64,000 nt of DNA, taken from positions 1 through 64,000 of the forward strand of contig NZ_JAFBBD010000009.1 in the NCBI RefSeq assembly GCF_016906995.1, in the 5' to 3' direction. The DNA comes from Spongiibacter marinus. Its GTDB lineage: Bacteria; Pseudomonadota; Gammaproteobacteria; Pseudomonadales; Spongiibacteraceae. Shown here piece after piece: positions 30,396 to 47,418 of this stretch. The position numbers were made by a program, and so were the translations under genes. Within the stretch, counting starts at the first letter, position 1; every line of letters begins with the position of its first letter. The notes beneath the pieces were generated by a model. It saw only the letters and a program-made list of their open reading frames with translations, did no database searches and was not told the DNA's origin.

Positions 30396-30398
30396 GGG

Positions 30399-30422
30399 CT
30401 ACTCAATATTCTGGATCTGCTC
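30399..30422 (-). repeat. attL: displaced native 3' end of yicC
   Basis: Read leftward, these bases encode EQIQNIE and a TAG stop, the exact last seven residues of the YicC protein encoded at 46546-47418. Five of the seven codons differ only at synonymous third positions. The longest perfect core shared with attR is 8 bases (ATCTGCTC, 30415-30422 and 46562-46569). This is the chromosomal end of yicC that was pushed away by integration. Confidence 0.88.
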
Positions 30423-30456
30423 ATTGTGTAGACCTTCGGGGCTAGGCAACGTGCCT

Positions 30457-31776
30457 TTACCATCTCTCTGGTAAATACTGCGTGAAATACAAAGGCATCA
30501 CGATATTGGTTTGTTCTAACGCTGAAGAGCCTTGTGTACCCGTTAACTTAAAGGTTTTATTTGGAGTACATTTTTCAACGTAGGATGCCAACGATTTTGC
30601 TCTTGTACGTTTACCACTTTTGACTTCCACAGGGATGATATCGCCTTCATCGGTCGCCAAAATAAATTCGATTTCGGCGCGGGCGTCATTCCATGAATAG
30701 CTTGGGTCAACGCCAATAGCTGTGAGCTCTTGTTGCACAAAGTTTTCAGCCACATAGCCTTTGTATTCATAGTTTTGTTGCTTAATCTCTTTATAACTGC
30801 TGCCCAGCATATGATTGAGCAGGCCCACATCAAACAGAAATAGTTTAACCATATTGTCTTTTTTATAGGCCGCCAACGGAGATTTAGGTAATCCTTCAAT
30901 AGGGTAGTTTGGCAAAGCTAAGCGGCAGCAGTTAAGCCAATGGATCGCGGTTTCAAAATCGCTATAACGAGATTTACGCTCATGCACATGCTTAAATTTA
31001 AAGCGTTTAACTGACTCATCGCTGACAAGTGATAGCTGGGCTGGAATGCTATTAAACACCGATTCAATCAGTGTGGCATCGACCTTGCCCGCGTACTTAC
31101 CGAAATCGCGGCGATAACCTTCAACTAAATCGGCATGAATTTTTGTGACTTTTTCAACACGCTCTAGAATGCTTGAATCCTTAAACTGATACCAAGCAGA
31201 AACGGCTTCCGGCATACCACCGGTAAAAAAATAGTCAGTGAGTTTATCCATCAATTTAGTGTGCACCGCCGGTGTGCTTGCTTGACTATCAAATGCTTTG
31301 ATCAGTGCTTGCTCGTTGGATGCGTAAATAAATTCTTGGAAGGTCAGTGGTCGTAAATTGTATTGTTCTACCTTGCCCACAGGGAAGGTGTTGAGCAAAC
31401 CAATATTTGAACCGCTGGCTGCGACAAAATAGGACGGTGCTTTTTCGGCAAAATACTTCAGCGAAGTAACGGCTCGTTCACATTCGCCAATTTCATCTAA
31501 TATCAGCAAGTCGGTGTCTGGATTGAACGCTTGGTTGGTTAACAACTCAATGTTCATTACTAGCTCGTCAGGTGACAACGAGCCATCGAACGCTTCTTTG
31601 TAAGCTGGGTTTTCAAGGAAGTCGATACGAAGGATGTTGGCAAAGGTATTCCCAAACAACTCTTGCAGTAGATAGGTTTTACCTGTTTGTCTTGCGCCAT
31701 CGATCAATAATGGCTTGCGCACAGGTTGACTTTTCCATGCTATTAGGGCGTTGAGTAAGTTGCGCTGCATTGTCAT
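30457..31776 (-). CDS. AAA-family ATPase with DUF4143 domain
   Basis: A 439-residue ATPase. The N-terminal AAA domain has Walker A GARQTGKTYLL (about residues 27-37) and Walker B LLILDEIGEC. The C-terminal half is the DUF4143 region, including the restriction-endonuclease-like segment YSWNDARAEIEFILATDEGDIIPVEVKSGKR, whose Glu and Glu-x-Lys spacing fits a PD-(D/E)xK-type fold. The function of the family is not established; many members sit on mobile elements. It is island cargo at the left end, transcribed outward. Two related palindromes upstream probably control it. Confidence 0.88.
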   Translation of the reverse strand: MTMQRNLLNALIAWKSQPVRKPLLIDGARQTGKTYLLQELFGNTFANILRIDFLENPAYKEAFDGSLSPDELVMNIELLTNQAFNPDTDLLILDEIGECERAVTSLKYFAEKAPSYFVAASGSNIGLLNTFPVGKVEQYNLRPLTFQEFIYASNEQALIKAFDSQASTPAVHTKLMDKLTDYFFTGGMPEAVSAWYQFKDSSILERVEKVTKIHADLVEGYRRDFGKYAGKVDATLIESVFNSIPAQLSLVSDESVKRFKFKHVHERKSRYSDFETAIHWLNCCRLALPNYPIEGLPKSPLAAYKKDNMVKLFLFDVGLLNHMLGSSYKEIKQQNYEYKGYVAENFVQQELTAIGVDPSYSWNDARAEIEFILATDEGDIIPVEVKSGKRTRAKSLASYVEKCTPNKTFKLTGTQGSSALEQTNIVMPLYFTQYLPERW

Positions 31777-31822
31777 TTCCCGCCAATTAAGACTGTTAAC
31801 TGCCTGTAGTATAACTCAGTCT

Positions 31823-31878
31823 ACACTTTTACGCGCAGAAAAGTGCGGAATTTTACATTTTTATGCGCATAAAAATGT
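31823..31878. promoter_or_regulatory. Two tandem palindromic operators before the DUF4143 ATPase
   Basis: Bases 31855-31878 form a perfect 24-base palindrome (half site ACATTTTTATGC). Bases 31823-31846 are a diverged copy (half site ACACTTTTACGC) with a matching right arm except for two positions. The starts are 32 bases apart, about three helical turns, so two dimers could bind on one face of the DNA. They lie 47-102 bases upstream of the ATPase start. The binding protein is unknown. Confidence 0.6.
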
Positions 31879-31891
31879 TATGACGTTATCG

Positions 31892-32087
31892 TTGGGCAAG
31901 GCTTTCCCTTTTGAGATGGCTTTGGGCACTTACCCTTTGGGCATCTGGGGCAGCTTGGGCAAAGCCTTAGTTCACGCCACTTAGCCACACACCTACCCTG
32001 CCCACACGGTATTTATTACTTGGGGCATTATGTAAATTCTGGGGCAGCTAGCTACCTGTACCCTCAGAAAGCTGCACGATCTGGGCA
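31892..32087. repeat. Iteron-like TGGG(G)CA repeats upstream of alpA
   Basis: In this gene-free stretch the motif TGGGCA or TGGGGCA occurs at 31893, 31923, 31938, 31946, 31956, 32021, 32040 and 32082 on the plus strand, plus CTGCCCA at 31999. A 12-base copy, TCTGGGGCAGCT, occurs exactly twice (31944-31955 and 32038-32049). The array lies between the divergent ATPase and alpA. It could bind AlpA or an initiator protein, or be part of a replication origin. That role is inferred. Confidence 0.55.
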
Positions 32088-32162
32088 TTTATCTGCCTAC
32101 TGCGTCCGTTTAGTACTGGCAAACTCCTAACTGAACTTAACAGATCAGTGAGGAAGCAAACG

Positions 32163-32405
32163 ATGAACCCAACCACACAATCACCCACAAACTCAGTACA
32201 CCCAGCGCGTCAGCAGCGGATTTTGCGCTTGCCCGAGGTAAAGGCAAAAACAGGCTTTGGCCGCAGCACCATTTATGCCCTGATGGCCAACGGTGAATTT
32301 CCGCGATCCATTCGTATTGGTGCGCGTGCCGTGGGCTGGTTAGAAAGCGATATCGACCAGTGGATTGAAACCCGCCGTATCGGTGCTGCTTATGGCCGTG
32401 GATAA
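32163..32405 (+). CDS. AlpA-family transcriptional regulator
   Basis: An 80-residue MerR/excisionase-like helix-turn-helix protein. The segment RILRLPEVKAKTGFGRSTIYALMANGEFPR with GARAVGWLESDIDQWI is the AlpA signature. AlpA proteins on integrative elements activate integrase/excision or control early genes. The ATG at 32163 is preferred because GAGG lies nine bases upstream. It overlaps the next gene by 14 bases. The iteron-like repeats lie directly upstream. Confidence 0.92.
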   Translation: MNPTTQSPTNSVHPARQQRILRLPEVKAKTGFGRSTIYALMANGEFPRSIRIGARAVGWLESDIDQWIETRRIGAAYGRG

Positions 32406-32637
32406 ACCATCAGCATTAAACCAATTATCTGCCAGTGATATGCCTAGCAACGAGCCAAAATTACCAGCTGGTTTTGCCTATAACGCGCAAAACTGGCTGG
32501 TGATGCAACCAGCGGGGCAAGATAGCCCAGTCAAAATCTGTTCTTGGCTGCAAGTAGCTGCTCGTACTCGCGATCCGCAAGGGGACACTTCTCTTGAAAA
32601 CAAAAGGCGGCTATTTATTGCACTGGTTAGACGATGA
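32392..32637 (+). CDS. DUF927 protein, N-terminal fragment before frameshift
   Basis: The frame from the ATG at 32392 encodes about 81 residues. Its end, ICSWLQVAARTRDPQGD, is the usual start of the DUF927 domain, but the frame then runs out of register and stops at 32637. The expected continuation (GGYLLHWLDDDNRHRYWAMP) is in the next frame from about 32606. A one-base insertion, or two-base deletion, within 32585-32610, near an A-rich run, would restore one protein of roughly 585 residues. It could be a true mutation, a sequencing error or a recoding site. Confidence 0.7.
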   Translation: MAVDKPSALNQLSASDMPSNEPKLPAGFAYNAQNWLVMQPAGQDSPVKICSWLQVAARTRDPQGDTSLENKRRLFIALVRR

Positions 32638-34147: not shown

Positions 34148-34463
34148 CGAGGCGATTAATCTTGTGTGGGCTTGTCGCCTTGCAGTGAACCGCCAGTCAA
34201 CATAGGTACTTAGCAAGGTTTAAAGTTTAAAGCTGACAAGACCGCTAGTGTACTGGTTGTGTAATTCACGCGTATGGAGATTGCTATTGTCCTAAACGGA
34301 GAATATTCTTGCGATATTATCAGTAGTTGATAAGATGCTAGGCTTATGTATAGGCATACAGTCTTTTGATTGTTTAAATGCTGTTTTACGCATTCGCTGG
34401 CAGTGGCCTTTTGTGAGTGAAGAAGGCAAGTAGAGAGTGCAGGCAAACAATCCGAGTAAAGTA
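34148..34463. other. Gene-poor gap before the helicase-nuclease operon
   Basis: About 316 bases, AT-rich relative to the backbone. A 40-odd-codon open frame ending at 34433 (tail RIRWQWPFVSEEGK) has no ribosome-binding site or recognisable homology, so it is not called. The promoter of the operon beginning at 34464 must lie here, but I cannot pick convincing boxes. Confidence 0.4.
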
Positions 34464-34796
34464 ATGAAAAACGCAAAACAATCGCGCTGTGTAATCGGGA
34501 TTAAAGGCCAAACACCCGACCCCGATTTCCCCGTTGATATCTGGTTCGACTCACTGAAATCGGTGGCCAATGTGCTGTCGAAAGAAAACCAGCAGTTGTT
34601 AAAAGTGATTGCCGAGCAACAGCCGCAATCGGTCACTGAGCTGGCCACGCTGACAGGCCGTGCTGTCAGCAATGTGTCGAGAACACTCAAAACATTGGGC
34701 AAGTACAACTTGGTTGAAATGCAAAAATCACGAAATGGATTGGCGGTAAAACTGCGATATCAATCGATGTTGTTATTGATCCAGCCATTAGAATAA
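34464..34796 (+). CDS. Winged-helix regulator (HVO_A0114/MarR-like) heading the operon
   Basis: About 110 residues, with a clear winged helix-turn-helix: LSKENQQLLKVIAEQQPQSV, then TELATLTGRAVSNVSRTLKTLGKYNLVEMQ. It resembles small MarR/HVO_A0114-type DNA-binding proteins that often accompany toxins or defence genes. A GTG at 34437 in the same frame is an alternative start. It ends ten bases before the large helicase gene, so it is the first gene of a three-gene operon and a likely autoregulator or sensor. Confidence 0.8.
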   Translation: MKNAKQSRCVIGIKGQTPDPDFPVDIWFDSLKSVANVLSKENQQLLKVIAEQQPQSVTELATLTGRAVSNVSRTLKTLGKYNLVEMQKSRNGLAVKLRYQSMLLLIQPLE

Positions 34797-34806
34797 AAGG
34801 AATATC

Positions 34807-37800
34807 ATGCAGCAAGTTGGAATTTATGAGCAGTTAATAACACAGCTGATTGCCAGTCGCATTGACCGAGAGCGATTCTATGTCGGCGAACGTGAGCTCA
34901 ATAGCAGTGAAGCATCCGTCTGGCTATCACGTTTCTTATCACACATTCTTGAGTATGCGATTGAGTCAGTCCCCTCTAGCGATGATCGCCTACAACAGCA
35001 AATTACTTTATCCAACCAATTATTACTCTGGCTAAAAACAAAAATTCAAGATAACGACTTTATCGAAGACAATTTGCTCGCCAGTCAAGGTAAAATTCTG
35101 ACTGCGCTCTATGAGCTCGAAAATCCTGTCTCAGCCGATTTAAAAAATTATATTAACGACATTTTTCCACTAACAGGGTTAAGCCAAAGCGAGCTGTTTT
35201 GTGGCAGTAATGCGGGATTGTCGCTTGAATCTGAATTAAAGCGGGAGATCTTGTCTGCGGATAAGATTTACTGGTTAGTGTCATTTATTAAGTGGGCAGG
35301 GATACGAATTTTTCGCAATGAGTTAGAAGAATTTACCTCAAGTGGTCGCGAGCTAAAAATCATCACCACCTCATACATGGGAGCAACGGATGCCAAAGCG
35401 GTTGAGTATCTGGCGAGTTTACCGAATACCGAGGTGAAGCTGAGTTACAACACTGAGCGTGAACGTTTACATGCCAAGAGCTACTTATTTTTACGCAACA
35501 CGGGTTATCACACTGGTTATATCGGCTCTTCCAATTTATCTCATTCCGCGCTGACTAACGGCCTTGAATGGAATCTAAAGATCACCTCTAAAGAAATCCC
35601 ACACATTATCAGTAAATCATTGAGCACCTTTGAAACCTATTGGGCTTCTAATGATTTTGAACACTTTAGTGGTGATGCACCAAGCAGTGAAAAACTCAAA
35701 AAAGCCTTGAGTCAGCAGCGCGGAGATTTTGAGGCTAGCCCAACGCATTTCTTCGACATTTCGCCGTTTCCGCACCAGAGTGACATATTGGAGCAATTGG
35801 CTGTAGAACGTAGTGTTCACCAACGATTTCGCAATTTAGTCGTTGCCGCAACGGGCACCGGAAAAACCCTGATTTCAGCCTTTGACTTTGCGCGCTTTAT
35901 TAAAGAGAAACCGCAAGCAAATTTCTTGTTTGTTGCACATCGTGAAGAAATATTAAGACAAGCAAGAGCTGCTTATCGTGGTGTATTGAGAAACAGTGCT
36001 TTTGGTGAGTTGTGGGTAGGTGGACAAACGCCAGCTCATTATCGTCAGCTGTTTGTGTCGATCCAAACCCTCAACAACCAGCTGGTTCAACTCAACCTAA
36101 CTGCTGACTATTATGACTACATAGTGATAGATGAAGTGCATCATGTCGCTGCTGCAAGTTATCGTGGGTTACTGGACTATTTCTCACCCGCTATCTTGCT
36201 TGGTCTCACGGCCACGCCAGAGCGCCATGATGGTGGTGATATTTTGGCAGATTTTGGTGGTGTGATTGCTGCTGAAATTCGTTTGCCCGAAGCGATTAAT
36301 CGACGCCACCTTTGCCCATTTCAATATTTTGGTATCGATGATGATACCGACCTGCGAAATATTCCGTGGAGTCGGGGGCGCTATGATATTGCTCAACTAA
36401 CCAACCTTTATACTCACAACCAAGCGCGTTTTAATAAGATCTTCTTCAGTATGCAGGAAATACTGACAGACATTAGCAAAATGAAAGCGCTCGCTTTTTG
36501 TGTGAGTAAAGAGCACGCCCAGTACATGACACAGCAACTCTTATTAAAAGGCATTAAAGCGGATGTGCTGACCAGTGATAACAGCCATGAGCGGCAACAA
36601 AAGCAACAAGCGATTCGTTCTGGCAGCATTAACGTGCTTTGTGTGGTCGATATCTTCAATGAAGGTGTAGATATTCCCGAAGTGGATACCTTACTGTTTT
36701 TACGACCGACAGAAAGCTTAACTATCTTCCTGCAACAATTGGGGCGAGGTTTACGTTTAGCTGAGGGAAAAGAGTGCTGTACCGTGTTGGATTTTGTTGG
36801 CAACTCACGTCCTGAATATGATTTTGCCAATAAATTTAGAGCCTTAGTGGGGAAAAATCATCGAGCGATCAGCGAAGAAATAAAGCAAGGCTTCCCCCAC
36901 GCGCCACTGGGTTGCCGCATTGAATTAAGCAAGCGTACGCAAGAAATGGTGCTTAGCAATATTCGCCAAGCTTCATTAACCTTAAAGCGTTTAGTTGCAA
37001 TGATACGCCAATATCCAGAGCACTCTACACTACCGTTAACACTGGCGAACTTCTTAATCATAAACCCTCATATCGACTTGAATGAACTTTATAAGCGAGG
37101 AAGTTGGTCGCAGCTGGTTCAGCAAGCTAAGTATGAAATCAACGAAAATTCAGTTGATGAAGATCTGCTGAAAATGCTTAGAAAGGCCATTCATAACCGA
37201 ATTTTGACCTGTGATGATCATGCCTATTTGAGTTTCTTAAAACAGCTTTGCCAAAGTAACTTTGTTATTAAAGATGCTGACCATCGTTATGCCTTGATGT
37301 GTCATTACGATTTTTGGCAGAAAACGGGGCCTGAATGTGGATTCGATTCCATTGTTCAAAGCTTAGCGAAACTGAATGCTTGCGAGTTAAAAGCAGAGTT
37401 AATGGATGTTGTGAATTGGCAACTCGCACAAACCAAGCATGAGCAACCAACAATGCAGGCTTTGCCTGAGGTTTCACTAAGGCTGCATGCACGTTATGCG
37501 CGTGAACAAATATTAGTGGCATTTGGTGCGACCACGTTTGAGCGCCAGCCGCCAGCACGCGAAGGTGTGTTTGTGCTGAAAGATCAAAACATTGAACTGA
37601 TGTTTGTCACTTTAGACAAAAATGAAAAGCAATTTTCGCCAACCACCATGTATCACGATTACGCGATCAACGACCACCTGTTTCACTGGCAGTCACAAAA
37701 TAGCGCACGGCCAGATAAAGGCCGTGGTTTGGAGTACATCCAACACCAAAAAATCGGTAAGCGTCTGTTCTTATTTGTGCGTGAGCAAAGCAAAGATGAA

Positions 37801-37947
37801 TACGGCCGAACCATGGGTTTTGTGAATTATGGTGAAGTAGACTACGTATCGCATACAGGTTCACAACCGATGAGCATTACTTGGCAGTTAAAAGAGCCAA
37901 TGCCACACTTTATGTGGCAACAAGCTGCGAAGTTGGCAGTAGGGTGA
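34807..37947 (+). CDS. PLD-like nuclease / SF2 helicase / DUF3427 fusion
   Basis: A 1046-residue multidomain protein. Residues ~125-290 form a phospholipase D-like nuclease with the motif HAKSYLF (His ~221) followed by GSSNLSHSAL. An SF2 helicase follows: Walker A AATGTGKT (~348-355), DEVHH (~441), TATPER (~467) and motif VI QQLGRGLRL (~642). The C-terminal ~300 residues correspond to DUF3427. Proteins with this layout are found in mobile and defence islands, and cleavage plus translocation on foreign DNA is the likely activity. The next gene, a nuclease, starts five bases after the stop. The exact system name is unknown to me. Confidence 0.88.
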   Translation: MQQVGIYEQLITQLIASRIDRERFYVGERELNSSEASVWLSRFLSHILEYAIESVPSSDDRLQQQITLSNQLLLWLKTKIQDNDFIEDNLLASQGKILTALYELENPVSADLKNYINDIFPLTGLSQSELFCGSNAGLSLESELKREILSADKIYWLVSFIKWAGIRIFRNELEEFTSSGRELKIITTSYMGATDAKAVEYLASLPNTEVKLSYNTERERLHAKSYLFLRNTGYHTGYIGSSNLSHSALTNGLEWNLKITSKEIPHIISKSLSTFETYWASNDFEHFSGDAPSSEKLKKALSQQRGDFEASPTHFFDISPFPHQSDILEQLAVERSVHQRFRNLVVAATGTGKTLISAFDFARFIKEKPQANFLFVAHREEILRQARAAYRGVLRNSAFGELWVGGQTPAHYRQLFVSIQTLNNQLVQLNLTADYYDYIVIDEVHHVAAASYRGLLDYFSPAILLGLTATPERHDGGDILADFGGVIAAEIRLPEAINRRHLCPFQYFGIDDDTDLRNIPWSRGRYDIAQLTNLYTHNQARFNKIFFSMQEILTDISKMKALAFCVSKEHAQYMTQQLLLKGIKADVLTSDNSHERQQKQQAIRSGSINVLCVVDIFNEGVDIPEVDTLLFLRPTESLTIFLQQLGRGLRLAEGKECCTVLDFVGNSRPEYDFANKFRALVGKNHRAISEEIKQGFPHAPLGCRIELSKRTQEMVLSNIRQASLTLKRLVAMIRQYPEHSTLPLTLANFLIINPHIDLNELYKRGSWSQLVQQAKYEINENSVDEDLLKMLRKAIHNRILTCDDHAYLSFLKQLCQSNFVIKDADHRYALMCHYDFWQKTGPECGFDSIVQSLAKLNACELKAELMDVVNWQLAQTKHEQPTMQALPEVSLRLHARYAREQILVAFGATTFERQPPAREGVFVLKDQNIELMFVTLDKNEKQFSPTTMYHDYAINDHLFHWQSQNSARPDKGRGLEYIQHQKIGKRLFLFVREQSKDEYGRTMGFVNYGEVDYVSHTGSQPMSITWQLKEPMPHFMWQQAAKLAVG

Positions 37948-37952
37948 TTATC

Positions 37953-39953
37953 ATGACGCATTTAGCCATCGACAAAGTATCCCCCCTTTGGCGCTTTAGT
38001 TTGGTCGAAAAAACCGAACAAGACGCAGCGACTAGCCAACAACGCGGGCATTTTCCACTGATGTGGTTGGCTAATTTTGCCGCGTTACGGGCGCGTTTTG
38101 AGCAAGGCTTAAAGGTGATTTGTGCCGCCCCCCATAGCCGCTTACAACCGGTGGTTGCCAATATCAAAGCGGCTAAATTAAAAGGCCGCCTACCTCATAA
38201 GTTAGCCGAGAAAGTTAAGCAAGACTTTGCGAATGGCCAGTACGATAAGCGCTATGCAGTCGAAAAAAAGCAACTGAGTGTCGATACCCCAGAAAACCGT
38301 TTTATCAAAATGGCGGTGAGTAAAAGTAAGCGGCAATTAGCGGAGTTTGAACAAAAGCTTAGGCAGAGTAACCAAGCACCAGAACGGCAACGGTTGTCAG
38401 ATTCATTTTTAAATGAGCTGCATAGTTGGCAACAACCGCTGCAAAAAGTGTTAGGTCAGAGTTTTTTAAAAGAGGTGGGTGCATACACAGGGTTAAGCCG
38501 TGAGTCGTTAGTGCTACAGCAAAAAACTGGTTACAGCGCGGTGTATCGTGTTTGGCAGGAGCTGAAATTTTATTTAGATGTGTTTGGCAATCAGTCGAGC
38601 ATTTCAATGAAGTCGGTGGCCGAGATTTACGAAGTGTGGTGTTTTTTGTGTTTGAAACAGATTTTAGAGCAGGATCTCGGCTTTGAATTGGTGGAAAACA
38701 GTGCGACTAAGCTCGCCCAGAATGACTTTTTTGAGTACCAACTAAAAGATGGGTTTGCCGGTGCCTTTCTTTTTAAACGCAGCGATGGTGTGACCGCTAG
38801 GCTGGCACACGAGCCGAAATTTACCAAAAAGGGGCAATCAATCCGCTCGTATTTAGTGAACCAAGAGCCAGATATTGTATTGGAAGTGACACTGCCGAAA
38901 AGCGCTGATTTAACAAAAGCAGACTCATCAGAAGAAAAGCAGTTTATTTGGCTGTTTGATGCCAAGTACCGCATTAAAACCGAGAAAAACCGCTTTGATG
39001 ACAGTAATGATGATATTGAAAGTACGGATTACGTACCGGACGATGCTATCAACCAAATGCACCGTTATCGGGATGCTTTGATTCGTTTATCAGAACCGCG
39101 CGATTCTAAATCACCATCAAGTGGAAACGCTGGCCAATCTCCTAAGAAATGCCGCCCTGTTTTTGGTGCGTTTGCTTTATACCCAGGTTTTTTTGATCAA
39201 GCCACAAAAAACAACCCCTACGCAGCCGCGATAGAAGAAGTGGGTATTGGTGCGTTTGCCCTCTTACCTAGCCAAAACGAACTTAGTCAAACTGAATCAA
39301 CCCAGACTAAGAGCTGTTATTCCGGTCACCAGTGGTTGCTAGAGTTCTTGCAAGCGCAAATTGGCACAGCGCCGAATGTACAAACAGGGCAAGGCAATGA
39401 GGCCATGTATCCTGTGGCTGGCATGGCGGAAAGGCTCTACGTACAAGACGCAGCACGCATACCTTATTACGGCATGCGCCAAGTGCTGTATCCTGATTTG
39501 ACGATGACCGTGGCATTGGGTGGGCAACGTGGCCGTGATAATGGCTACTTTGAACAATTTGAGCAAGGCACAGCGCTGTGGTATCACCTGCCGCAAAGCA
39601 CGTTTTTGCAGAAATTTAAGCAGCATATTGCCGAGGAAATTCGCTATTTAGCACTGGCATCTACCTCAGACACTCAAAGTTCAACCAAGCAAATTGACAA
39701 GCTCTGGCCAGTTAAACGAGTCACAGTGTTACCACGTTACGCCATTACCGAAGATCAAGCAGGTAAGAAGTCAGGTTCTGCTGATTTGTATTATTTATTT
39801 GAGCTTGGCAAACCACTGTCACTACAAACGCCAGTGACCAACGTGCCACATCGCCCAATTAAAAACTCGATGAAACTCACAACCTTAACTCGCCTAGAGA
39901 GCGTCACTAAGTTTACCGAGGTTGAAAGAGTGTACGAAGCGGCAATGGTGTGA
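37953..39953 (+). CDS. DUF2357 protein with PD-(D/E)XK nuclease domain
   Basis: A 666-residue protein. The N-terminal half is DUF2357-like (helical, with YDKRYAVEKKQLSVDTPENRFIKMA). The second half has a PD-(D/E)XK nuclease core: EPDIVLEVTLP at about residue 304 and WLFDAKYRI at about residue 333, giving the D...D-x-K triad. Relatives occur with McrB-type or helicase partners in restriction loci. It starts five bases after the helicase gene, so it is the effector partner of that operon. Long tracts rich in Gln and Lys are visible. The ATG at 37953 is the first start after the helicase stop. Confidence 0.85.
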   Translation: MTHLAIDKVSPLWRFSLVEKTEQDAATSQQRGHFPLMWLANFAALRARFEQGLKVICAAPHSRLQPVVANIKAAKLKGRLPHKLAEKVKQDFANGQYDKRYAVEKKQLSVDTPENRFIKMAVSKSKRQLAEFEQKLRQSNQAPERQRLSDSFLNELHSWQQPLQKVLGQSFLKEVGAYTGLSRESLVLQQKTGYSAVYRVWQELKFYLDVFGNQSSISMKSVAEIYEVWCFLCLKQILEQDLGFELVENSATKLAQNDFFEYQLKDGFAGAFLFKRSDGVTARLAHEPKFTKKGQSIRSYLVNQEPDIVLEVTLPKSADLTKADSSEEKQFIWLFDAKYRIKTEKNRFDDSNDDIESTDYVPDDAINQMHRYRDALIRLSEPRDSKSPSSGNAGQSPKKCRPVFGAFALYPGFFDQATKNNPYAAAIEEVGIGAFALLPSQNELSQTESTQTKSCYSGHQWLLEFLQAQIGTAPNVQTGQGNEAMYPVAGMAERLYVQDAARIPYYGMRQVLYPDLTMTVALGGQRGRDNGYFEQFEQGTALWYHLPQSTFLQKFKQHIAEEIRYLALASTSDTQSSTKQIDKLWPVKRVTVLPRYAITEDQAGKKSGSADLYYLFELGKPLSLQTPVTNVPHRPIKNSMKLTTLTRLESVTKFTEVERVYEAAMV

Positions 39954-40151: not shown

Positions 40152-40850
40152 CTAATTTTTGCTACCGTAATCAGTTACGGAACCAAAATTAGCTTCCAAC
40201 CACACATCATTCTCCGGCCCACAAAGGTGGTGCAGTAGAGCTAGGTTGATTTGGTGGCTGATCACGTTGCCGTTTCGTTTTTGGCTCTCCTTTCTAAAAC
40301 CTCTCAGTAATAACCCTGTGCATGATTTTCCTATTTGCTCCGGCGAACTGGGCAGGCAAAAGGCGCGGTTTTGCTGTTTGGGGTGCAAGTTAGCTCGCTT
40401 TCCTGTTTTAGATAAAGGCGTAATGCACCAAAAAATACGGGCGTTGGCAGGTGTGTTTGCGTGCAATGTGTTGATTTGAATCGTGCCATCACTATATGTA
40501 GGTAACAAATGTGCCGGTAACACAACCAACCCGCCTTGCGCGTGGCCTTCAACCTCAGGTAAAGGTAGCCAATACAGGTTTGGCCATTGCTCGGGGCTCT
40601 GCCATTTTTCTACGATCACTTGTGCGCCAATGCTATTCAGCCATTGGTGAATCGGGCAGCCTGGGTGCGCTTGTTTAACGCGCGGTAAGTGATAGGTCAG
40701 CCAGCGGGTTAAGCGTTCGGCGGCATTATCGCACTGGCTTAATGCTGGGTAGAGGGTAAACGCGCCATGCCCAACCACCAAGGCGACCACCTGCTGTATC
40801 CATTCTCTATCCCAATCGTTACCACTTGCCCATAACACGTCACTTATCAC
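40152..40850 (-). CDS. Island-encoded hypothetical protein
   Basis: A 232-residue soluble protein I cannot place in a family. Notable stretches are HGAFTLYPALSQCDNAAERLTRWLTYHLP and PNLYWLPLPEVEGHAQGGLVVLPAHLL, which look conserved rather than random. The C-terminus (NFGSVTDYGSKN) is low in hydrophobics. No signal peptide, membrane helix or nucleotide-binding motif is visible. It is alone on the minus strand between the defence-like operon and the TOTE gene. Confidence 0.6.
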   Translation of the reverse strand: MISDVLWASGNDWDREWIQQVVALVVGHGAFTLYPALSQCDNAAERLTRWLTYHLPRVKQAHPGCPIHQWLNSIGAQVIVEKWQSPEQWPNLYWLPLPEVEGHAQGGLVVLPAHLLPTYSDGTIQINTLHANTPANARIFWCITPLSKTGKRANLHPKQQNRAFCLPSSPEQIGKSCTGLLLRGFRKESQKRNGNVISHQINLALLHHLCGPENDVWLEANFGSVTDYGSKN

Positions 40851-41036
40851 CTTGTTGGTTCGTCATGCCGTCTATTTTCAGTGGTCGGACGCAGACTCGG
40901 TGGTGAAATAGATGAAAGAAATGGCCATCAAACTAACCAGTCAAATCAGTTTTTTCTGATGACCTGTGCGCTGCTAACTATTTGATATACATAGTCCAAT
41001 ACGGCGCTGTTTGGCGGCATTTGGCTAGTGAAAAAA

Positions 41037-41231
41037 ATCGAGACGCCAAACGATCGTTTGCATTCTGGGTTTAAAAAATCAAACGGTTTGTACTTTGGAT
41101 TCGAGGTTGGTTTAGGGTGAAAAAAGTGCCAAACCTTGCTTTGAGCCTGTATTGGCAAGGCCTGCCGGTTTTGGACTTCAATCGAGACGCCAAACAGTAA
41201 ATGGGCTAATTTCCCTGTTTGGCGTTTCGAT
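41037..41231. repeat. Three copies of a 15-base repeat in the gap before the TOTE gene end
   Basis: ATCGAGACGCCAAAC occurs at 41037-41051 and 41181-41195. An inverted copy with one mismatch lies at 41217-41231. The 456-base stretch 40851-41306 holds no gene I trust. An open frame on the minus strand (40946-41278) spans the repeats but lacks a ribosome-binding site and would just translate them as a repeated FGVSI. Function is unknown. Confidence 0.55.
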
Positions 41232-41306
41232 CCAAAAGCCAAACGGATAGTGGTTTTGGCGTAAGGGGGTAAAGGCATGGGGAGGTGTTTAATGAAGTGC
41301 TGCTGT

Positions 41307-43715
41307 TTATTTTGGCTTGGTATTTGGTGAAGGGATGTTTTCTAACTTCAATGAAGGTTGCTTGTTACTGTTGTCATCAATGTACTCAAGGGCGTACCCC
41401 ATAGCCTTGTAGCTTTTCTCGCGTTTTTTAAACATGCGTTGCAGCATTGGGAGGGCGCAGTCTACATAGTCGTGAATGGTGACTTGTGTTTTGCCTTCCG
41501 ATTCACGATGAATACGACCGGCATATTGGGCCAACGTACCTTTCCATGCGATTGGCATGGCCAAAAACAACGTATCCAGTCTTGGCAGGTCAAACCCTTC
41601 ACCCACATATTTTCCTGTTGCGACGACAACTTGAGCCGATTGCAGATGATTATCTGCATTCTTGCGTTCCGCAGCTTTCATGGCGCCTTTGAGTACGACA
41701 GTGCTTATACCCATCTCGGTAAGTCGTGAGTGTATGTATTCTGCGTGCTCTCTACGCTCTGTAAGGACTAACGGGTGTCCGCCATTTTGAACACACTGAG
41801 TGGCGCCTGAGACAACTTTTGAAGTGCGCTGCTCATTATTGACGAGCCAGCGGTAGGCATCGCTTATTTTTGGGCGCTCATCTGTTTTTATTAGCTCAGC
41901 TGGCGGTATATCGTAGAGCTGATGAATCATCACGGTTTGAGTAAATTGCTCATCAGGGCTTTGTTTCACTTTGTAGCGAATGGGCCCTGCCGCCATAAAA
42001 ATGATTTTTTGATGACCATCTTGTCGTTCTGGTGTTGCTGTTAGGCCCAATACATACTTTGCTCTTACCTCGTTGAGTACCATTTCAAACCTTGGCGCGG
42101 ATAAGTGATGGCATTCATCAACAATAATGTGGCCGTAGTCTTGGATGAGAGGCGTGATGGAGTTGTCTTTTTTATTAACCAAGCTTTGGTAGGTGGCAAT
42201 GTCGATAATGCCACTCGGCTTTCTTTTACCCCCGCCTATACTGCCAATGGTTACTTCTGGTAGGAACGTGCGTAATCGCTCTTGCCACTGCTCAAGCAGT
42301 TGTCGGCTATGAACCAGTATTAGGGTATTTACTTTGCGTTTTACGATCATGCCGATGGCAGTAACCGTTTTTCCAAATGCGGTCGGCGCATGCAAAATAC
42401 CGAAGTCATGTTTAGATATTGCGGCCACTGCGTCTCGCTGGTTCTTTCGCAAAGTGAACTCAGGGGTAAGTTTTAATAATGGTCTGCCGATTTCACGCTT
42501 ATCGTCAAACAGTGGTGAAATATTGTGCTCTTGTAGCAAAGCAATCGCGTCATCGAGACAGCCTCGCGGTAGTGCTAGGTAATCGTTTTCAATACGAGCA
42601 CAGGAAATAAACCTTGGAATGCCATGGGTTGAAAAGCGCAACGCTTGCGTTTTAAAAAACACAGGATTAGAAAAACTAGCTAATCGCTTTAGTCCTGCCA
42701 GTAGTGGCCCAGGTAACTCGCTCATCAAAAAGTAGATATGGTTGGCCAAGGTAATGGTCACGGTTTTCGGCAAAGACTCTAATTTTATTGGTGCGGCTTT
42801 GGCTGTGATTTCCCAAGGAGGGCGGTTGTCTATTAGACCTTGTTCGGACAGTAATAGGGTATTGGGTGAAATGGTTGTTATGAGTTGATCAATACTCGAT
42901 TGCGTGAGCGTTTTAAGCTCAGCAAGGTACCGCCATTGATCGTCAATGGCATTCAGGTCATTGTCAACAAAGCAGCTACGGCCTGAAAGGCGAGCCTCCT
43001 TTTGAAGTGGTAGCGCAATGAGATTGCCAAACCCGCCTTCAGGAAGGACATCTTGGTTAGGAAATAGCCTGTCATAGGAGTCAAACGATAGATTTGGAAA
43101 TATTTCCATGGCCTTATCAAGCAAAGCGAAACCAAGTGCCCGAGCTTGGTTAGCTGGGATGTTGGTTTCAAAAAAGATCCATAAGTGCGCCCCGTTGCCA
43201 GAACGCGAGATTTCTATCGCGTGTGGAATATCAAGCGCTTGACACGCTTTAGACATTGCTTTGACCTCTTCTTGCCAACAGCCTTTGTCAAAATCGGCTG
43301 CCAACAAATAGCACGTATTATCTTTCAGTAAGGGATACAGCCCCACCACTTGATGACCGGCAAGGTGCCTGTAAATAATGCGCTCGTTTAGTTCGCTAAA
43401 CTTTCGGTGTGAACAGTCTTGGCATTTAATGCGGGGTTTGTTGCAAACCCCGTTTACCCATTCATTATCACAGGCTACGGAATAGCCACTGCGGCCCTGT
43501 TGATTTTGCCAACGATTGGCGAAGATATCCTCTCGCCCACGAAATCGTTGTCTGAATAGGGCGACTTTTTGTTCTGGCGTGAATGTCTGTACTGAACACT
43601 CGTTTTGAGCGCTACGCAAAGCCTCTCTTAATGCGAGAAGCTGCTGCTTTTCGTTTTCAAGCTCAGCTAGCCTGTTATCAATAGCCGAAATGTTTGGGTA
43701 GCGAGCGTCATTCAT
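41307..43715 (-). CDS. TOTE-type archaeo-eukaryotic primase / SF2 helicase
   Basis: An 802-residue fusion. After a coiled N-terminus, a four-Cys zinc cluster (residues 82, 91, 98, 101) leads into an archaeo-eukaryotic primase domain with catalytic DFD (141-143), SRSGNGAHLWIFF (170-182) and SFDSYDRLFPNQD. A SF2 helicase follows: HAPTAFGKTV (~441), DECHH (~530), LGLTATPERQDG and motif VI QYAGRIHRE (~728). This matches the proteins called TOTE conflict systems, which are thought to act in element-versus-element or host conflicts by nucleic-acid synthesis and unwinding. No partner nuclease is fused. HigA is encoded 25 bases upstream on the same strand. Confidence 0.9.
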   Translation of the reverse strand: MNDARYPNISAIDNRLAELENEKQQLLALREALRSAQNECSVQTFTPEQKVALFRQRFRGREDIFANRWQNQQGRSGYSVACDNEWVNGVCNKPRIKCQDCSHRKFSELNERIIYRHLAGHQVVGLYPLLKDNTCYLLAADFDKGCWQEEVKAMSKACQALDIPHAIEISRSGNGAHLWIFFETNIPANQARALGFALLDKAMEIFPNLSFDSYDRLFPNQDVLPEGGFGNLIALPLQKEARLSGRSCFVDNDLNAIDDQWRYLAELKTLTQSSIDQLITTISPNTLLLSEQGLIDNRPPWEITAKAAPIKLESLPKTVTITLANHIYFLMSELPGPLLAGLKRLASFSNPVFFKTQALRFSTHGIPRFISCARIENDYLALPRGCLDDAIALLQEHNISPLFDDKREIGRPLLKLTPEFTLRKNQRDAVAAISKHDFGILHAPTAFGKTVTAIGMIVKRKVNTLILVHSRQLLEQWQERLRTFLPEVTIGSIGGGKRKPSGIIDIATYQSLVNKKDNSITPLIQDYGHIIVDECHHLSAPRFEMVLNEVRAKYVLGLTATPERQDGHQKIIFMAAGPIRYKVKQSPDEQFTQTVMIHQLYDIPPAELIKTDERPKISDAYRWLVNNEQRTSKVVSGATQCVQNGGHPLVLTERREHAEYIHSRLTEMGISTVVLKGAMKAAERKNADNHLQSAQVVVATGKYVGEGFDLPRLDTLFLAMPIAWKGTLAQYAGRIHRESEGKTQVTIHDYVDCALPMLQRMFKKREKSYKAMGYALEYIDDNSNKQPSLKLENIPSPNTKPK

Positions 43716-43740: not shown

Positions 43741-44112
43741 CTATGAAGCGCGAACTTGCGGCGGTTTGATGAGCGACTCTGCTGGAATACCTAGCCCTTC
43801 ATGAAGTTTCCAAATCATTTTTAGCGTGAGTGATCGCTTATGGTTTAGGATTTCATAAACACGATTGCTTTTACCTATCATGGGTTCAAGATCTTTAACC
43901 GTTAAGCCTTTGCGCTCCATCTCAAACTTTATTGCCTCAACAGGGTCTGGCAAATCCATTGGGAAATGCTTTGCTTCGTAGGCTTCAATTAACGTAACCA
44001 AAATGTCCAGCTTTTCGCCTTCAACGGTATCAGGCTCCGCCATCATTAGGTTTTCGATGTCGTTTAATGCCGCTCGGTAGTCGGCATCTGTTTTAATAGG
44101 TCTGATGTCCAT
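43741..44112 (-). CDS. higA: HigA-type antitoxin
   Basis: A 123-residue antitoxin. The N-terminal part (IRPIKTDADYRAALNDIENLM) matches HigA-like antitoxins, followed by a Cro/C1-type helix-turn-helix (MERKGLTVKDLEPMIGKSNRVYEILNHKRSLTLKMIWKL). It neutralises HigB and represses the operon. The ATG at 44112 has an AGAGGT site upstream. It follows higB by 29 bases, the normal toxin-first order of higBA. The TOTE gene begins 25 bases after its end on the same strand and may be read through from this promoter. Confidence 0.92.
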   Translation of the reverse strand: MDIRPIKTDADYRAALNDIENLMMAEPDTVEGEKLDILVTLIEAYEAKHFPMDLPDPVEAIKFEMERKGLTVKDLEPMIGKSNRVYEILNHKRSLTLKMIWKLHEGLGIPAESLIKPPQVRAS

Positions 44113-44141
44113 TATATACCTCTTGTTACTACCTTTTGGCT

Positions 44142-44444
44142 TCAAATCGTTTGCACATCAATTTTATCGTATTGCGCATGGCTGCCGATAAACCGTATGT
44201 AAACCACCTTGTAGGCATAATTGATCCAAACAACTAACCGGTATTTATTACCGGCAATGTTAAATACGACACGCCCATCTTTGAGGATGCTGGCATTTCT
44301 AAAGTCCTGTTTCACATCCGACGGTGATCCCCAATCAGCGTTTAATGCATGCCTATACCACGCTAACGTTGGCTCTTTCGCGTCAATGTATTCTGGGCTG
44401 TCTTCCCAAAATGTTTTTAAGGTTGATAATGCGATAATTCTCAT
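44142..44444 (-). CDS. higB: HigB-type mRNA interferase toxin
   Basis: A 100-residue RelE-superfamily toxin of HigB type (opening MRIIALSTLKTFWEDSPEYIDAKEPTLAWYR, then FNIAGNKYRLVVWINYAYKVVYIRFIGSHAQYDKID). HigB cleaves mRNA on the ribosome. The conserved GNKYRLVV and IGSHAQYDKI elements are intact, so it should be active. Inverted repeats upstream are likely HigA operators. The pair probably helps keep the island in the population. Confidence 0.93.
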   Translation of the reverse strand: MRIIALSTLKTFWEDSPEYIDAKEPTLAWYRHALNADWGSPSDVKQDFRNASILKDGRVVFNIAGNKYRLVVWINYAYKVVYIRFIGSHAQYDKIDVQTI

Positions 44445-44456: not shown

Positions 44457-44543
44457 GTCCCATTTTGGGACTTTTGCAAGTTTGGAATTTTTGATGCGGT
44501 TAGGAGTTCTTACCGCATCCCCGATTGCCCCATTCCTTGGGGC
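44457..44543. promoter_or_regulatory. Three inverted repeats upstream of higBA
   Basis: GTCCCA/TGGGAC with a 3-base loop (44457-44471) lies 13 bases before the higB start and is the best HigA operator candidate. TGCGGT/ACCGCA (44495-44517) and GCCCCA/TGGGGC (44527-44543) follow upstream. The last carries the island's TGGGGCA motif. The rest of the 195-base gap shows no gene. Confidence 0.5.
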
Positions 44544-44979: not shown

Positions 44980-46230
44980 TTAACGCCCTCCTGTGTGGTG
45001 TTGTGAAGCGGGCTCAAAGTTCACCAGTGGTTCAACCACATCAGCCACGGTTTGGTGGGCAATACGGCGCTCTTCAAAGTAATCGTGGCGGTCGTAGATG
45101 CCCTCAACGCCTTTTAGCTTATGGTTAAGACAGCGTTCGGCCACATTGCCTGCAATGCCCAAAGAGGCGGCAAGGCTGCGAAAGGTGCGGCGCAAATCGT
45201 GTACGGTGAAGTGTTCAAGTTTGCCCATTTTATTGGGAGGCTGTTTTTTGCGCCCAGGCTCGCGACCAAATAGTTTAGAAATGGCGCGGTTCAGTGTATC
45301 TGGCCCCATATGTGGACGGTGGCTTGCTCGTCTGGCTGGGAAAACATAAGGCGATCCACAAGCACGGATTTGCAGCTCGTTAAACCAGGTAATGGCTTGG
45401 CGCGGTAAGGGGATGCTGATTGGCACGCCGGTTTTACTGCGTTCTTTGGGTAGATCCCATACGCCCGTGGTTAAGTCCATTTCACGCCACATGGCTTCAC
45501 ATAGTTCGCTTTTACGTACGCCCAACACCAAAAACAGACAGCAAGCGAGGTAGTTATCGCGGCCAAAGCTATTGATATGGGTATGAAACACACTAAAGGC
45601 GTAGTGAATTTCCTCTTTGCTAAGCATCCTGTCTTTACTGGACTCCACGCCACCGGCATCGTCCACGGTAAAGGCTGCGGCTGGGTTGTTCAGCGTTAAG
45701 TCGAGCTTTATCGCATGTCGAAACAGCTGCTTCATGTACATCAAGGTATCGTTGGCGATGGTAGGGCGGTTACTTTCTCGAATGCGCTCTAATACTTCGC
45801 GCACATCGCGTGCGGTCACCTCAGCAATACACTTAATGCCAATGACTGGGCTTATGTCTTTAGTGTAAACCCGATACGGAATCTTGGGATGCTTTAGTCG
45901 TCTACTCAGATCGGTTCGATACCAGTCATGGAACAGTTGATCTACGGTTTCAATGTCAGGTAACTCGATTTTCTGTTTTTCTAGAAGAGGATCTATGCCG
46001 TCACGTACTTCCTTTCGAAAGTATGCGGCGGCAATTCTGGCGTCTGCCAACGACATTAAAGGAAATTGCCCCAAGGTTGCTTCTCGTCTTCCTTTGGCTG
46101 TGGTGTAGCGGATCATCCAGTAAGGCGAGCCTTGTTTGCGGACGCAAAAGTATAGACCTTCACCATCTGAATATTTTTTGGGGTCGGCTTTGCTGTATGC
46201 AATAACCTGTTTTGCTGTGAGTTTTCCCAT
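44980..46230 (-). CDS. int: Tyrosine-type site-specific integrase (DUF4102/P4 type)
   Basis: A 416-residue integrase. The N-terminal DUF4102 arm-binding domain (MGKLTAKQVIAYSKADPKKYSDGEGLYFCVRK) is followed by a SAM-like core-binding domain and the catalytic domain. Catalytic residues are visible: Arg in GVRKSELCEAMW (~237), HDLRRTF (~342), LNHK and the nucleophile in GIYDRHDY (~378). It should integrate and excise this island at the 3' end of yicC, 316 bases away. The start at 46230 fits the family opening. Confidence 0.95.
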   Translation of the reverse strand: MGKLTAKQVIAYSKADPKKYSDGEGLYFCVRKQGSPYWMIRYTTAKGRREATLGQFPLMSLADARIAAAYFRKEVRDGIDPLLEKQKIELPDIETVDQLFHDWYRTDLSRRLKHPKIPYRVYTKDISPVIGIKCIAEVTARDVREVLERIRESNRPTIANDTLMYMKQLFRHAIKLDLTLNNPAAAFTVDDAGGVESSKDRMLSKEEIHYAFSVFHTHINSFGRDNYLACCLFLVLGVRKSELCEAMWREMDLTTGVWDLPKERSKTGVPISIPLPRQAITWFNELQIRACGSPYVFPARRASHRPHMGPDTLNRAISKLFGREPGRKKQPPNKMGKLEHFTVHDLRRTFRSLAASLGIAGNVAERCLNHKLKGVEGIYDRHDYFEERRIAHQTVADVVEPLVNFEPASQHHTGGR

Positions 46231-46273
46231 GTTTACTCCATAGTTGCTGAAATAATGGAGGGGGCAATAATGG

Positions 46274-46427
46274 CTGCCCACCACCGATTTGCTTATTGAA
46301 TCAGCAGCTAACCTGTTGTGGTGGCGAGTTAAATGCGAAAATTGGGTAACTTACTGCCCACCAATTTGCTCACCGCAAAATGCTTATTGAGCCAAAATGA
46401 GGGTACTGCCCACCATTCTGCCCACCA
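46274..46427. repeat. Four CTGCCCACCA repeats between int and attR
   Basis: Exact copies of CTGCCCACCA occur at 46274-46283, 46354-46363, 46406-46415 and 46418-46427. TGCTTATTGA occurs twice (46290-46299, 46381-46390) and TTGGACGGG twice (46466-46474, 46529-46537). The 316-base gap 46231-46545 holds no gene. Position between integrase and core site suggests arm-type binding sites for integrase or an excision factor. The TGCCCA core is the complement of the iteron motif near alpA. Confidence 0.65.
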
Positions 46428-46478
46428 CTAAACAGGTAGTTGGTAACGGACATCTGCAAACCGATTTGGACGGGAAAA

Positions 46479-46517
46479 ATAAAAAAGCCCTGTATTTACA
46501 AGCAAATAACAGGGCTT
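46479..46517 (-). terminator. Rho-independent terminator after yicC
   Basis: Read leftward, a 9-bp stem (AAGCCCTGT / ACAGGGCTT, 46509-46517 with 46485-46493) with a 15-base loop is followed by a T-rich tail (TTTTTTATTTTT when the stem's last bases are included). It lies 29 bases after the yicC stop. It belongs to the island side of attR, so the island supplies both a new coding end and a terminator. Confidence 0.85.
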
Positions 46518-46545
46518 CTAAGACATTCTTGGACGGGTGAAAAAA

Positions 46546-46569
46546 CTATTCGATGTTTTGAATCTGCTC
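46546..46569 (-). repeat. attR: island-supplied 3' end of yicC
   Basis: Last seven codons and stop of the present yicC (EQIQNIE). They encode the same peptide as the displaced end at 30399-30422, with synonymous differences at five codons. The perfect shared core is ATCTGCTC at 46562-46569. The crossover must lie in or next to it. Confidence 0.85.
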
Positions 46570-47418
46570 GCGCATTTGCTCGATCAGTACTTTCAGTTCA
46601 ACTGCGGCCTGGGTGCTTTCGGCAACAACGGCTTTGGACGACAGGGTGTTGGCCTCGCGGTTGAGTTCCTGCATTAAGAAGTCGAGCCGACGACCCACTG
46701 CGCCGCCTTTTTTGAGTACACGGCGCACTTCTTTTACGTGGGTGTCGAGGCGGTCGAGTTCTTCGTCGACATCGGCTTTCTGGGCAATCAGGGCCATTTC
46801 CTGTTCGAGTCGCTCGGCATCGAGTTCGGCTTTCAAGTCGGCAAGTCGCTGGCGAAGTTTATCCCGTTGGCCACTGACGATTTCCGGCATGCGCTGACGT
46901 AAATCGGCGACGATGCTGTCAATGCTGACGAGGCGTTGCTCGATCAGGTCGGCGAGTGCCAGGCCTTCGCGCTGGCGATTGTCGCATTGGTCTTGCAGGG
47001 CTTGCTCAAAGCTGGTCAGCAGCGCCTTGCTAATGGTGTCGCTGTCGATCTGGGCATTTTGCATGACGCCAGGCCAGCGCAATACTTCTAGTACGTTGAT
47101 AGGCGCAGCATGGGCAATATCGGCCCGCAGGGCGTTTGCGGTGTTGAGCAGCTGTTCGGCCAGCTCTTGGTTAAGCGTCAGGCTTTGCTCTTGTTCTTGC
47201 AGGTTAATACGCAGCGAGCATTCCACTTTGCCGCGTTGCAGCGTCTTGCGCAGCCGATCGCGTAGCTCCGGTTCCAACTGGCGCCAGTTCTCGGGGAGTT
47301 TAAACGACAGCTCCAGGTAGCGGTGATTGACGGAGCGCAACTCCCAGATGGCGGTACCCCAGTCATGTTCACTGCGGCGGTGGGCGAAGGCGGTCATACT
47401 GCAAATAGTCACGGGCAT
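46546..47418 (-). CDS. yicC: YicC family endoribonuclease-like protein
   Basis: A 290-residue protein of the YicC/YloC family (opening SMTAFAHRRSEHDWGTAIWELRSVNHRYLEL, conserved end segment VGRRLDFLMQELNREANTLSSKA). E. coli YicC is a stress-linked RNase that affects the small RNA RyhB. The family acts on RNA in the cytosol. It diverges from rph, as in many gammaproteobacteria. The last seven codons come from the integrated island but keep the protein sequence unchanged, so function should be intact. A CAGGGG site precedes the start. Confidence 0.96.
   Translation of the reverse strand: MPVTICSMTAFAHRRSEHDWGTAIWELRSVNHRYLELSFKLPENWRQLEPELRDRLRKTLQRGKVECSLRINLQEQEQSLTLNQELAEQLLNTANALRADIAHAAPINVLEVLRWPGVMQNAQIDSDTISKALLTSFEQALQDQCDNRQREGLALADLIEQRLVSIDSIVADLRQRMPEIVSGQRDKLRQRLADLKAELDAERLEQEMALIAQKADVDEELDRLDTHVKEVRRVLKKGGAVGRRLDFLMQELNREANTLSSKAVVAESTQAAVELKVLIEQMREQIQNIE

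Follow-up and report, generated by a model that had tools for sequence, protein, structure and literature searches.

A primase-helicase fusion gene behind higBA on a Spongiibacter marinus island, and its recurrent place downstream of toxin-antitoxin modules

Results

An intact primase-helicase gene follows higB and higA

We analyzed a 64,000-nucleotide stretch of DNA from Spongiibacter marinus (assembly GCF_016906995.1, contig NZ_JAFBBD010000009.1, positions 1 to 64,000), referred to here as the window. At 41307-43715 it carries a gene, termed AEP-SF2, for a protein that joins an archaeo-eukaryotic primase (AEP) to a superfamily 2 (SF2) helicase. The gene is the last of three on the minus strand, in the order higB-higA-AEP-SF2 with the toxin gene first. 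Its open reading frame (ORF) begins with ATG and runs for 802 codons with no internal stop; all other genes were called by a simple script that takes the longest ORF rather than by a trained gene finder. The features of the unit are listed below, with the basis of each assignment in brackets.

41307..43715, minus strand: AEP-SF2 gene, Prim-Pol-type primase plus XPB/UvsW-like helicase, 802 aa (Pfam, alignment, AlphaFold2 model)
42861..43583, minus strand: AEP/Prim-Pol domain, residues 45-285, with D141-F-D143, SGNGAH at 172-177 and D215 (Pfam, alignment, fold match)
43413..43472, minus strand: putative zinc cysteine cluster, C82, C91, C98 and C101 (alignment)
41367..42767, minus strand: XPB/UvsW-like N-terminal region plus SF2 motor, residues 317-783 (Pfam, structure matches)
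43741..44145, minus strand: higA, encoding a 134-aa antitoxin if read from a TTG start (123 aa from the ATG at 44112), 25 nt upstream of AEP-SF2
44142..44444, minus strand: higB toxin gene, 100 aa, HigB_toxin PF09907 at 2.1e-31 (Pfam)
44457..44471, no strand: palindrome GTCCCA-N3-TGGGAC upstream of the higB start, predicted HigA operator (sequence)

Comparison with Pfam assigned residues 49-277 of the protein to the AEP-TOTE family (PF22548, E=1.3e-99, 332.9 bits, cut-off 27) and placed ResIII at residues 420-564 and Helicase_C at 642-737. The catalytic positions were inspected in an alignment of 26 homologues with identities down to 34%. Primase residues D141 and D143 (DFD), S172 and H177 (SGNGAH) and D215 were unchanged in 26/26 homologues, as were helicase residues K449 (Walker A), D533 and E534 (DECH) and R734 and R737 (motif VI). 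The four cysteines were complete in 19/19 shorter forms and in 0/7 of the long Bacteroidota forms (~987 aa); the cluster is therefore dispensable for the family as a whole. An AlphaFold2 model built from the 26-homologue alignment (predicted local distance difference test, pLDDT, 79.5; predicted template modelling score, pTM, 0.55) fell below a pLDDT of 50 at residues 284-307 and 782-802. Residues 45-285 of this model matched the Prim-Pol domain of the Marinitoga CRISPR-associated PrimPol (CAPP; 7nqf) with Z 25.2 and a root-mean-square deviation (rmsd) of 2.5 A over 204 residues, and residues 317-768 matched archaeal XPB (6p4f_C) with Z 23.2 and an rmsd of 4.4 A over 388 residues. T4 UvsW (1rif) matched the helicase model with Z 20.1. 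The VIA-align match list is dominated by the helicase, and the absence of a family from that list is uninformative. The first-pass annotation, made from the letters alone, had described an 802-residue protein with its primase motifs and helicase intact and had pointed to a search against the AEP-TOTE family. The single ORF, the PF22548 match, the primase fold in the model and the absence of any lost catalytic residue among the homologues all bear it out. As judged from alignment and model, AEP-SF2 is an intact AEP of the Pfam family AEP-TOTE fused to an SF2 helicase, with the corresponding activities predicted.

The higBA pair and a conserved palindrome

The same annotation had placed the gene beside higBA. 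The adjacency was confirmed, with higB-higA directly upstream on the same strand, and proved to be an understatement: higA is the next gene upstream in 19/19 near-identical copies compared, the window included (in one, L012, a primase-frame fragment intervenes), and in relatives the position is occupied by other toxin-antitoxin (TA) types. The gap between higA and AEP-SF2 is 25 nt in all seven window-group loci listed, and the two reading frames overlap by 8 nt in all eight loci listed from two more distant HigBA groups. With Pfam, HigA scored 22.5 bits for HTH_3, just under the cut-off of 23.

Among loci whose HigB is at least 60% identical, the palindrome was exact in 31/35 and present in 35/35 when one letter of slack was allowed, with exact copies starting 27-30 nt ahead of higB. 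It was absent from 111/111 loci without HigB, and the 3.57 Mb window genome holds a single copy. Moreover, the DNA upstream of higB has diverged between HigBA groups apart from the palindrome, which is kept. We infer from this pattern that the palindrome is the HigA operator, with HigA binding predicted. A scan for promoters and terminators gave signals not above chance.

TA modules recur directly upstream of AEP-SF2

The comparison set comprised 142 loci matching the AEP, many of them closely related. An ORF of at least 740 aa was found in 105, and clustering at 90% identity gave 66 clusters. Nine loci reach a contig edge and 28 have no single ORF of at least 740 aa; among the latter, L180 duplicates L021, some are contigs of metagenome-assembled genomes, and L045, L239 and L240 fall barely below the cut-off. 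Loci without a match (L170, L171) or with the AEP part missing (L051, L065, L067) were dropped, and 19 matching genomes (2, 12 and 5 from the three surveys given below) were left out, most of them containing fragments or weak matches. Duplicate records remain, with L172/L046, L173/L040 and L183/L024, among others, identical on the tree.

Each locus was classed by the same-strand gene lying at most 200 nt upstream. HigA was found in 36 of the 142 loci, AbiEii in 10, and GNAT and PIN in two each, with the GNAT and some other labels resting on clustering or sequence reading. AbiEi, a second HigA type, Xre/MbcA, Fic, ParE and HipA occurred once each, and in two further loci a TA gene was present but lay further off. 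When 30 upstream proteins were scanned singly with Pfam, AbiEii was recognized in seven, PIN in two, and ParE, HipA, Fic, Xre/MbcA and a HigA-type helix-turn-helix (HTH) in one each. One of the 30 was SIR2-like and two were Schlafen-type, the remainder belonging to other families or having no match. The GNAT-like upstream protein gave no Pfam or NCBIfam match, and an NCBIfam scan of the unnamed upstream genes gave none.

To compare positions, we took one gene per 90% cluster (66 representatives, whose independence is incomplete) and, as controls, other genes of at least 400 aa in the same loci. A TA gene lay directly upstream on the same strand of 14/65 AEP-SF2 genes as against 2/118 controls (Fisher p=1.2e-5), a contrast in which TA models built from AEP-SF2 neighbours favour AEP-SF2 over the controls. 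The same 14/65 compared with 3/63 for the directly downstream position (Fisher p=0.008).

An AEP-SF2 tree of 122 rows requires no fewer than 30 changes of upstream state when 'none' and 'other' are included as states. HigA carriers form three groups within a single supported clade of 48 rows, interspersed with carriers of AbiEii, GNAT and HipA. The tree was built quickly and its branches are long, so the separation into three HigBA groups is not firm. Between these groups the proportion of synonymous differences (pS) was 0.65-0.87 for higA and higB and 0.81-0.86 for AEP-SF2, near saturation, and the nonsynonymous proportion (pN) was 0.012-0.051 for higA, 0.072-0.084 for higB and 0.16-0.21 for AEP-SF2. 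Because pS is near saturation for higBA and AEP-SF2 alike, we rejected a recent exchange of HigBA between AEP-SF2 lineages as the source of the higher HigBA identity; the difference therefore looks like constraint. The recurrent same-strand place of AEP-SF2 behind varied TA modules is the best-supported new point of this comparative analysis; we hold it with moderate confidence, its meaning being unproven. In the literature searched, with subscription journals mostly outside it and sources available in part, we found no description of this placement.

Two other kinds of neighbour were seen. At L158 and L195 a family of ~190-200 aa without Pfam or NCBIfam match lies upstream of AEP-SF2; four members of its cluster are directly upstream and one is downstream, and it is possibly an unrecognized partner or TA component. 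In one Bacteroidota genome (L070/L235) a long AEP-SF2 directly follows a pair that resembles GajA-GajB (Gabija), a label from sequence reading with no database match.

HigBA also occurs without AEP-SF2

Besides the bias in the TA models, several observations weigh against a functional link between AEP-SF2 and its TA neighbours. There was no same-strand gene within 200 nt upstream in 47/142 loci and a gene of another kind in 32/142, with five unreadable. Pfam tallies of the two nearest genes per side, strand ignored, found TA families on both sides: AbiEii 7, HipA 5 (N-terminal domain), HigB 3, Fic 2 and ParE 2 among 129 upstream proteins, and AbiEii 3, HipA 3 and Fic 4 among 123 downstream. 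The signal is therefore one of same-strand upstream position. Two further near-identical loci carry a partial gene; L051 starts inside AEP-SF2, and L067, shortened at the 5' end, has no higBA before it.

The remaining points came from HigA itself. A HigA search of 369 class genomes found matches with E-values of 1e-20 or lower in 57, and among 30 loci fetched by HigA, AEP-SF2 follows higA in three, one being the window. In nine loci HigA was at least 72% identical over at least 118 residues, and six of the nine had no AEP-SF2 in the DNA examined, which in L253 stops 212 nt past higA; a tenth, partial match (L261) lacked both AEP-SF2 and the palindrome. The palindrome is present in five of the six HigBA loci without AEP-SF2. 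It is therefore a feature of HigBA in its own right, and we rejected it as proof of a dedicated three-gene system. HigBA, since it occurs without AEP-SF2, is self-sufficient. The relation runs in one direction only, with AEP-SF2 tending to sit behind TA modules rather than TA modules tending to come with AEP-SF2.

The unit lies on a probably mobilizable island

The surrounding island has the following further features.

44980..46284, minus strand: tyrosine integrase of the island, adjoining the yicC 3' end (Pfam, relatives)
46546..47418, minus strand: yicC, core gene, predicted integration target (relatives)
30457..31776, minus strand: AAA_14/DUF4143 ATPase, island backbone gene (Pfam, relatives)
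32148..32405, plus strand: AlpA-type regulator, island backbone gene (Pfam, relatives)
40998..41283, no strand: non-coding element resembling an origin of transfer (oriT), similar to DNA directly upstream of mobI in R997 (DNA match)

In 2-kb windows the G+C content was 43-53% over ~30.4-46.4 kb, against 54-62% in most of the remaining window, where a second dip, to 47%, occurs at 17-20 kb. By G+C and gene content the island measures ~16 kb. Integrase and yicC occur together in nine relatives and in E. coli, the integrase being 96-100% identical in eight and 78% in L057. A search for attachment (att) sites found no exact repeats of at least 12 nt between 46251-46750 and 29901-32200; a 9-bp att is known from a yicC-type island, according to the available part of PMC8978831.

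The oriT-like element matched R997, which we take to be an SXT/R391 element (the record names plasmid pR997), with 72% identity over 79% of a 361-nt query. It holds six of the window's 26 GCCAAAC/GTTTGGC sites, with starts at 41009-41238, and AEP-SF2 ends 23 nt from it. As single-stranded DNA, 40946-41278 folds better than 100/100 shuffles (z -3.5). This stretch was rejected as a protein gene, having no Pfam match and being conserved where no gene is annotated. The element is also present in E. coli islands located at tRNA-Sec, in which AEP-SF2 is not annotated. These features make 40998-41283 a candidate that is probably the island's oriT. Mobilizable genomic islands (MGIs) that sit at the yicC 3' end and carry an oriT mimicking that of SXT/R391 have been described (PMC5397120 and PMC4344509, in the parts available). 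From the yicC site together with the oriT-like element, the window island is predicted to be probably mobilizable by an SXT/R391-type helper.

Elsewhere on the island, a DUF927 helicase gene at 32365-34147 is split: a 580-aa E. coli homologue, 97% identical, spans two ORFs, with its residues 1-65 and 68-580 matching the window. At 40152-40850 lies a 232-aa ORF with no Pfam match that is perhaps part of the island backbone, because the near-identical group retains it downstream of AEP-SF2 (17-protein cluster). The left border, at 29087-30395, carries a gene for an SbtA-type bicarbonate transporter and then a P-II-like gene. An Rfam scan gave no match.

The neighbouring helicase-nuclease operon is variable cargo

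On the plus strand at 34437-39953 lie in a row an HTH gene (HVO_A0114-like), a PLD-SF2-DUF3427 protein with a PADLOC match to mREase_IV (1.9e-223), and a DUF2357/PD-(D/E)xK protein; by their domains they are a putative type IV restriction-like cargo unit. The first pass had noted this helicase-nuclease operon 1.4 kb from AEP-SF2 as a natural combination. The distance holds, the operon ending at 39953, 1353 nt from the AEP-SF2 ORF, but the two lie tail-to-tail on opposite strands and the combination does not persist. Among 18 near-identical relatives, 17 of which could be read for at least 5.9 kb downstream, the DUF2357/PD-(D/E)xK gene was kept in one and a full-length DUF3427 helicase in none, the cargo varying from one to another. 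A partnership between AEP-SF2 and the operon at 34.4-40.0 kb was rejected on this lack of conservation.

Distribution of AEP-SF2

In three surveys PF22548 was found in 19/398 genomes of the phylum (18 over the cut-off), 35/369 of the class (33 over) and 25/296 drawn around a Chryseobacterium genome (24 over). Proteins 94-97% identical to that of the window occur in Marinomonas, Neiella, Thalassotalea, Vibrio, Colwellia, Alteromonas, Amphritea and Shewanella. The probable mobility of the island is the likely reason for this spread and for the E. coli and Acinetobacter copies that follow. In E. coli, 4/5426 genomes matched at least 80% of the query, at 95.7% DNA identity, and 45/5426 matched it at all; the 16 partial matches listed cover the oriT-like end only. 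Acinetobacter plasmids carry AEP-SF2 at ~97% identity, and at least 80% of the protein was found on 91/72,556 plasmid records. The corresponding figure for phages was 0/50,697 records, the 30 phage matches listed out of 2271 covering the helicase part only.

Transposition modules are a further setting. AEP-SF2 lies between a resolvase and a Tn3 transposase in E. albertii, and in Pantoea between a resolvase and a DUF4158 protein, DUF4158 presumably being part of Tn3 transposases. It directly follows TniB/TniQ in Sphingobium and sits beside three tyrosine recombinases in Gemmobacter.

Discussion

The domain make-up of AEP-SF2, its intact catalytic residues, the gene order, the palindrome and the recurrent TA-upstream position are directly established, and the last of these suggests a link between TA modules and AEP-SF2. 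Our tentative reading, to which we give a probability of roughly 45%, is that AEP-SF2 is the last gene of a HigA-regulated higB-higA-aep unit that serves as TA-regulated defence or maintenance cargo. The three genes would be transcribed together from a HigA-autoregulated promoter and would travel as cargo of the yicC-integrated, probably SXT/R391-mobilizable island. HigA bound to the palindrome would keep expression of the unit low. Loss of HigA upon infection, entry of foreign DNA or stress would then allow HigB to slow translation while the level of AEP-SF2 protein rises. Its XPB/UvsW-like double-strand DNA motor could act on forked or displaced DNA, and its Prim-Pol domain could prime or extend on the exposed single strand, with the outcome that foreign replication would be disturbed or the resident element protected.

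Somewhat unlikely, in our estimate, is that AEP-SF2 instead helps mobile elements to replicate or repair themselves, by priming or restarting synthesis, with no part in immunity, and that the TA module only stabilizes the element. XPB/UvsW-like motors and Prim-Pols act on forks, and such a helper would fit the position of AEP-SF2 in or beside the transposition modules of E. albertii, Pantoea, Sphingobium and Gemmobacter, its stop codon 23 nt from the oriT-like element, and the TA pairs that Tn3 transposons are reported to carry (PMC7157771, in the part available). However, the oriT-like element and its islands occur without AEP-SF2 (of two such E. coli islands inspected, the gene is annotated in neither), and the gene sits in differing element types in which no constant replication partner was seen.

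We also consider it unlikely that TA modules and AEP-SF2, both common island cargo, merely hitch-hike together, the gene having inserted behind a ready promoter without any functional link. The existence of HigBA and its palindrome without AEP-SF2, the many changes of upstream state over the tree, and the 79/142 loci with a non-TA gene or none upstream are what such insertion would produce. Chance company would not readily account for the upstream-downstream asymmetry and the TA excess over other large genes of the same loci, for the 8 nt by which the coding regions of higA and AEP-SF2 overlap in two of the HigBA groups, or for one and the same gene order across three HigBA groups, between which AEP-SF2 is near-saturated at synonymous sites.

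It appears improbable that AEP-SF2 acts as the effector in an immune system of modular build. Interchangeable TA modules (HigBA, AbiE, a GNAT pair, ParDE, HipBA, PIN and Fic) would there act as sensor and switch, and antitoxin loss on infection would both free the toxin and derepress the Prim-Pol/XPB-like enzyme, which would wreck or over-prime the forks of the invader.

The first pass had called the protein a TOTE-type primase-helicase. An AEP of the AEP-TOTE family fused to an SF2 helicase is indeed present, but the label of a TOTE system is not supported for AEP-SF2, because the TPR-OB and TBP partners from which the name derives (TPR, OB, TBP, Effector; Aravind, Iyer et al. 2022 as cited in the available part of PMC12458937) were not found. 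A TOTE system whose partners have diverged beyond the reach of the Pfam models, or are encoded at another site in the genome, is highly improbable: although the AEP falls in a Pfam family named after TOTE systems and the NCBI product name of the E. coli copy is 'TOTE conflict system archaeo-eukaryotic primase domain-containing protein', the TBP model PF00352 matched 0/19 genomes carrying AEP-SF2, the window's included, with archaeal controls 4/4 positive, and Pfam found no TPR, OB or CSD domain in the 14 island ORFs scanned. The domain name alone carries over, and an AEP-TOTE domain is insufficient to place a gene in a TOTE system.

The family is catalogued in Pfam and NCBI, and the literature searched, within the scope given above, yielded no experiments on it. 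If the placement behind TA modules reflects function, the three-gene unit of ~3.1 kb offers a testable entry point. It is nearly unchanged in four E. coli chromosomes and combines a predicted single-site operator with clear catalytic residues.

Comparison with known systems

AEP-SF2 shares with TOTE conflict systems an AEP domain from the same Pfam family (PF22548), and differs from them as a fusion gene that neighbours a TA module, with no TPR-OB or TBP genes found. The island resembles those of the MGIVflInd1 type, as far as the available parts of PMC5397120 and PMC4344509 describe them, in its integrase at the yicC 3' end and in an oriT-like element akin to DNA upstream of mobI in R997; at ~16 kb it is below the 33 kb quoted there.

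Within the protein, the closest solved AEP domain is that of Marinitoga CAPP (PDB 7nqd, 7nqf and 7p9j; Z ~25, 29-31% identity), whose residues align with the DxD and His of AEP-SF2, and the CRISPR-associated PrimPol model is its best PADLOC match (3.9e-92). Unlike CAPP, AEP-SF2 is fused to an SF2 motor, and a repeat search of 30-47 kb found no CRISPR-like array. The Pfam scan of the 14 island ORFs found no Cas families; in PADLOC, the HTH gene at 34437-34796 weakly matched CARF/CasR/Csa3 models in their HTH part. At ~20% identity, residues 317-783 match XPB and T4 UvsW (6p4f, 5tnu, 2oca and 1rif) across both helicase domains as well as the N-terminal region. AEP-SF2 adds a primase domain to this architecture and includes neither Bax1 nor TFIIH, with which XPB is partnered in its entries.

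The TA side of the unit is closest to PD-lambda-2, a system that, in the accessible portion of PMC9519451, consists of HigB, a HigA-peptidase and a third gene related to the P4 antitoxin. The best PADLOC models were PD-Lambda-2_A for HigB (6.8e-36) and PD-Lambda-2_B for HigA (2.8e-42). The 134-aa HigA of the window covers positions 1-122 of the 402 in that model and has no peptidase domain in Pfam. Both systems follow the order of a toxin-like, an antitoxin-like and an accessory gene, and the accessory gene here is AEP-SF2 in place of the P4 antitoxin relative.

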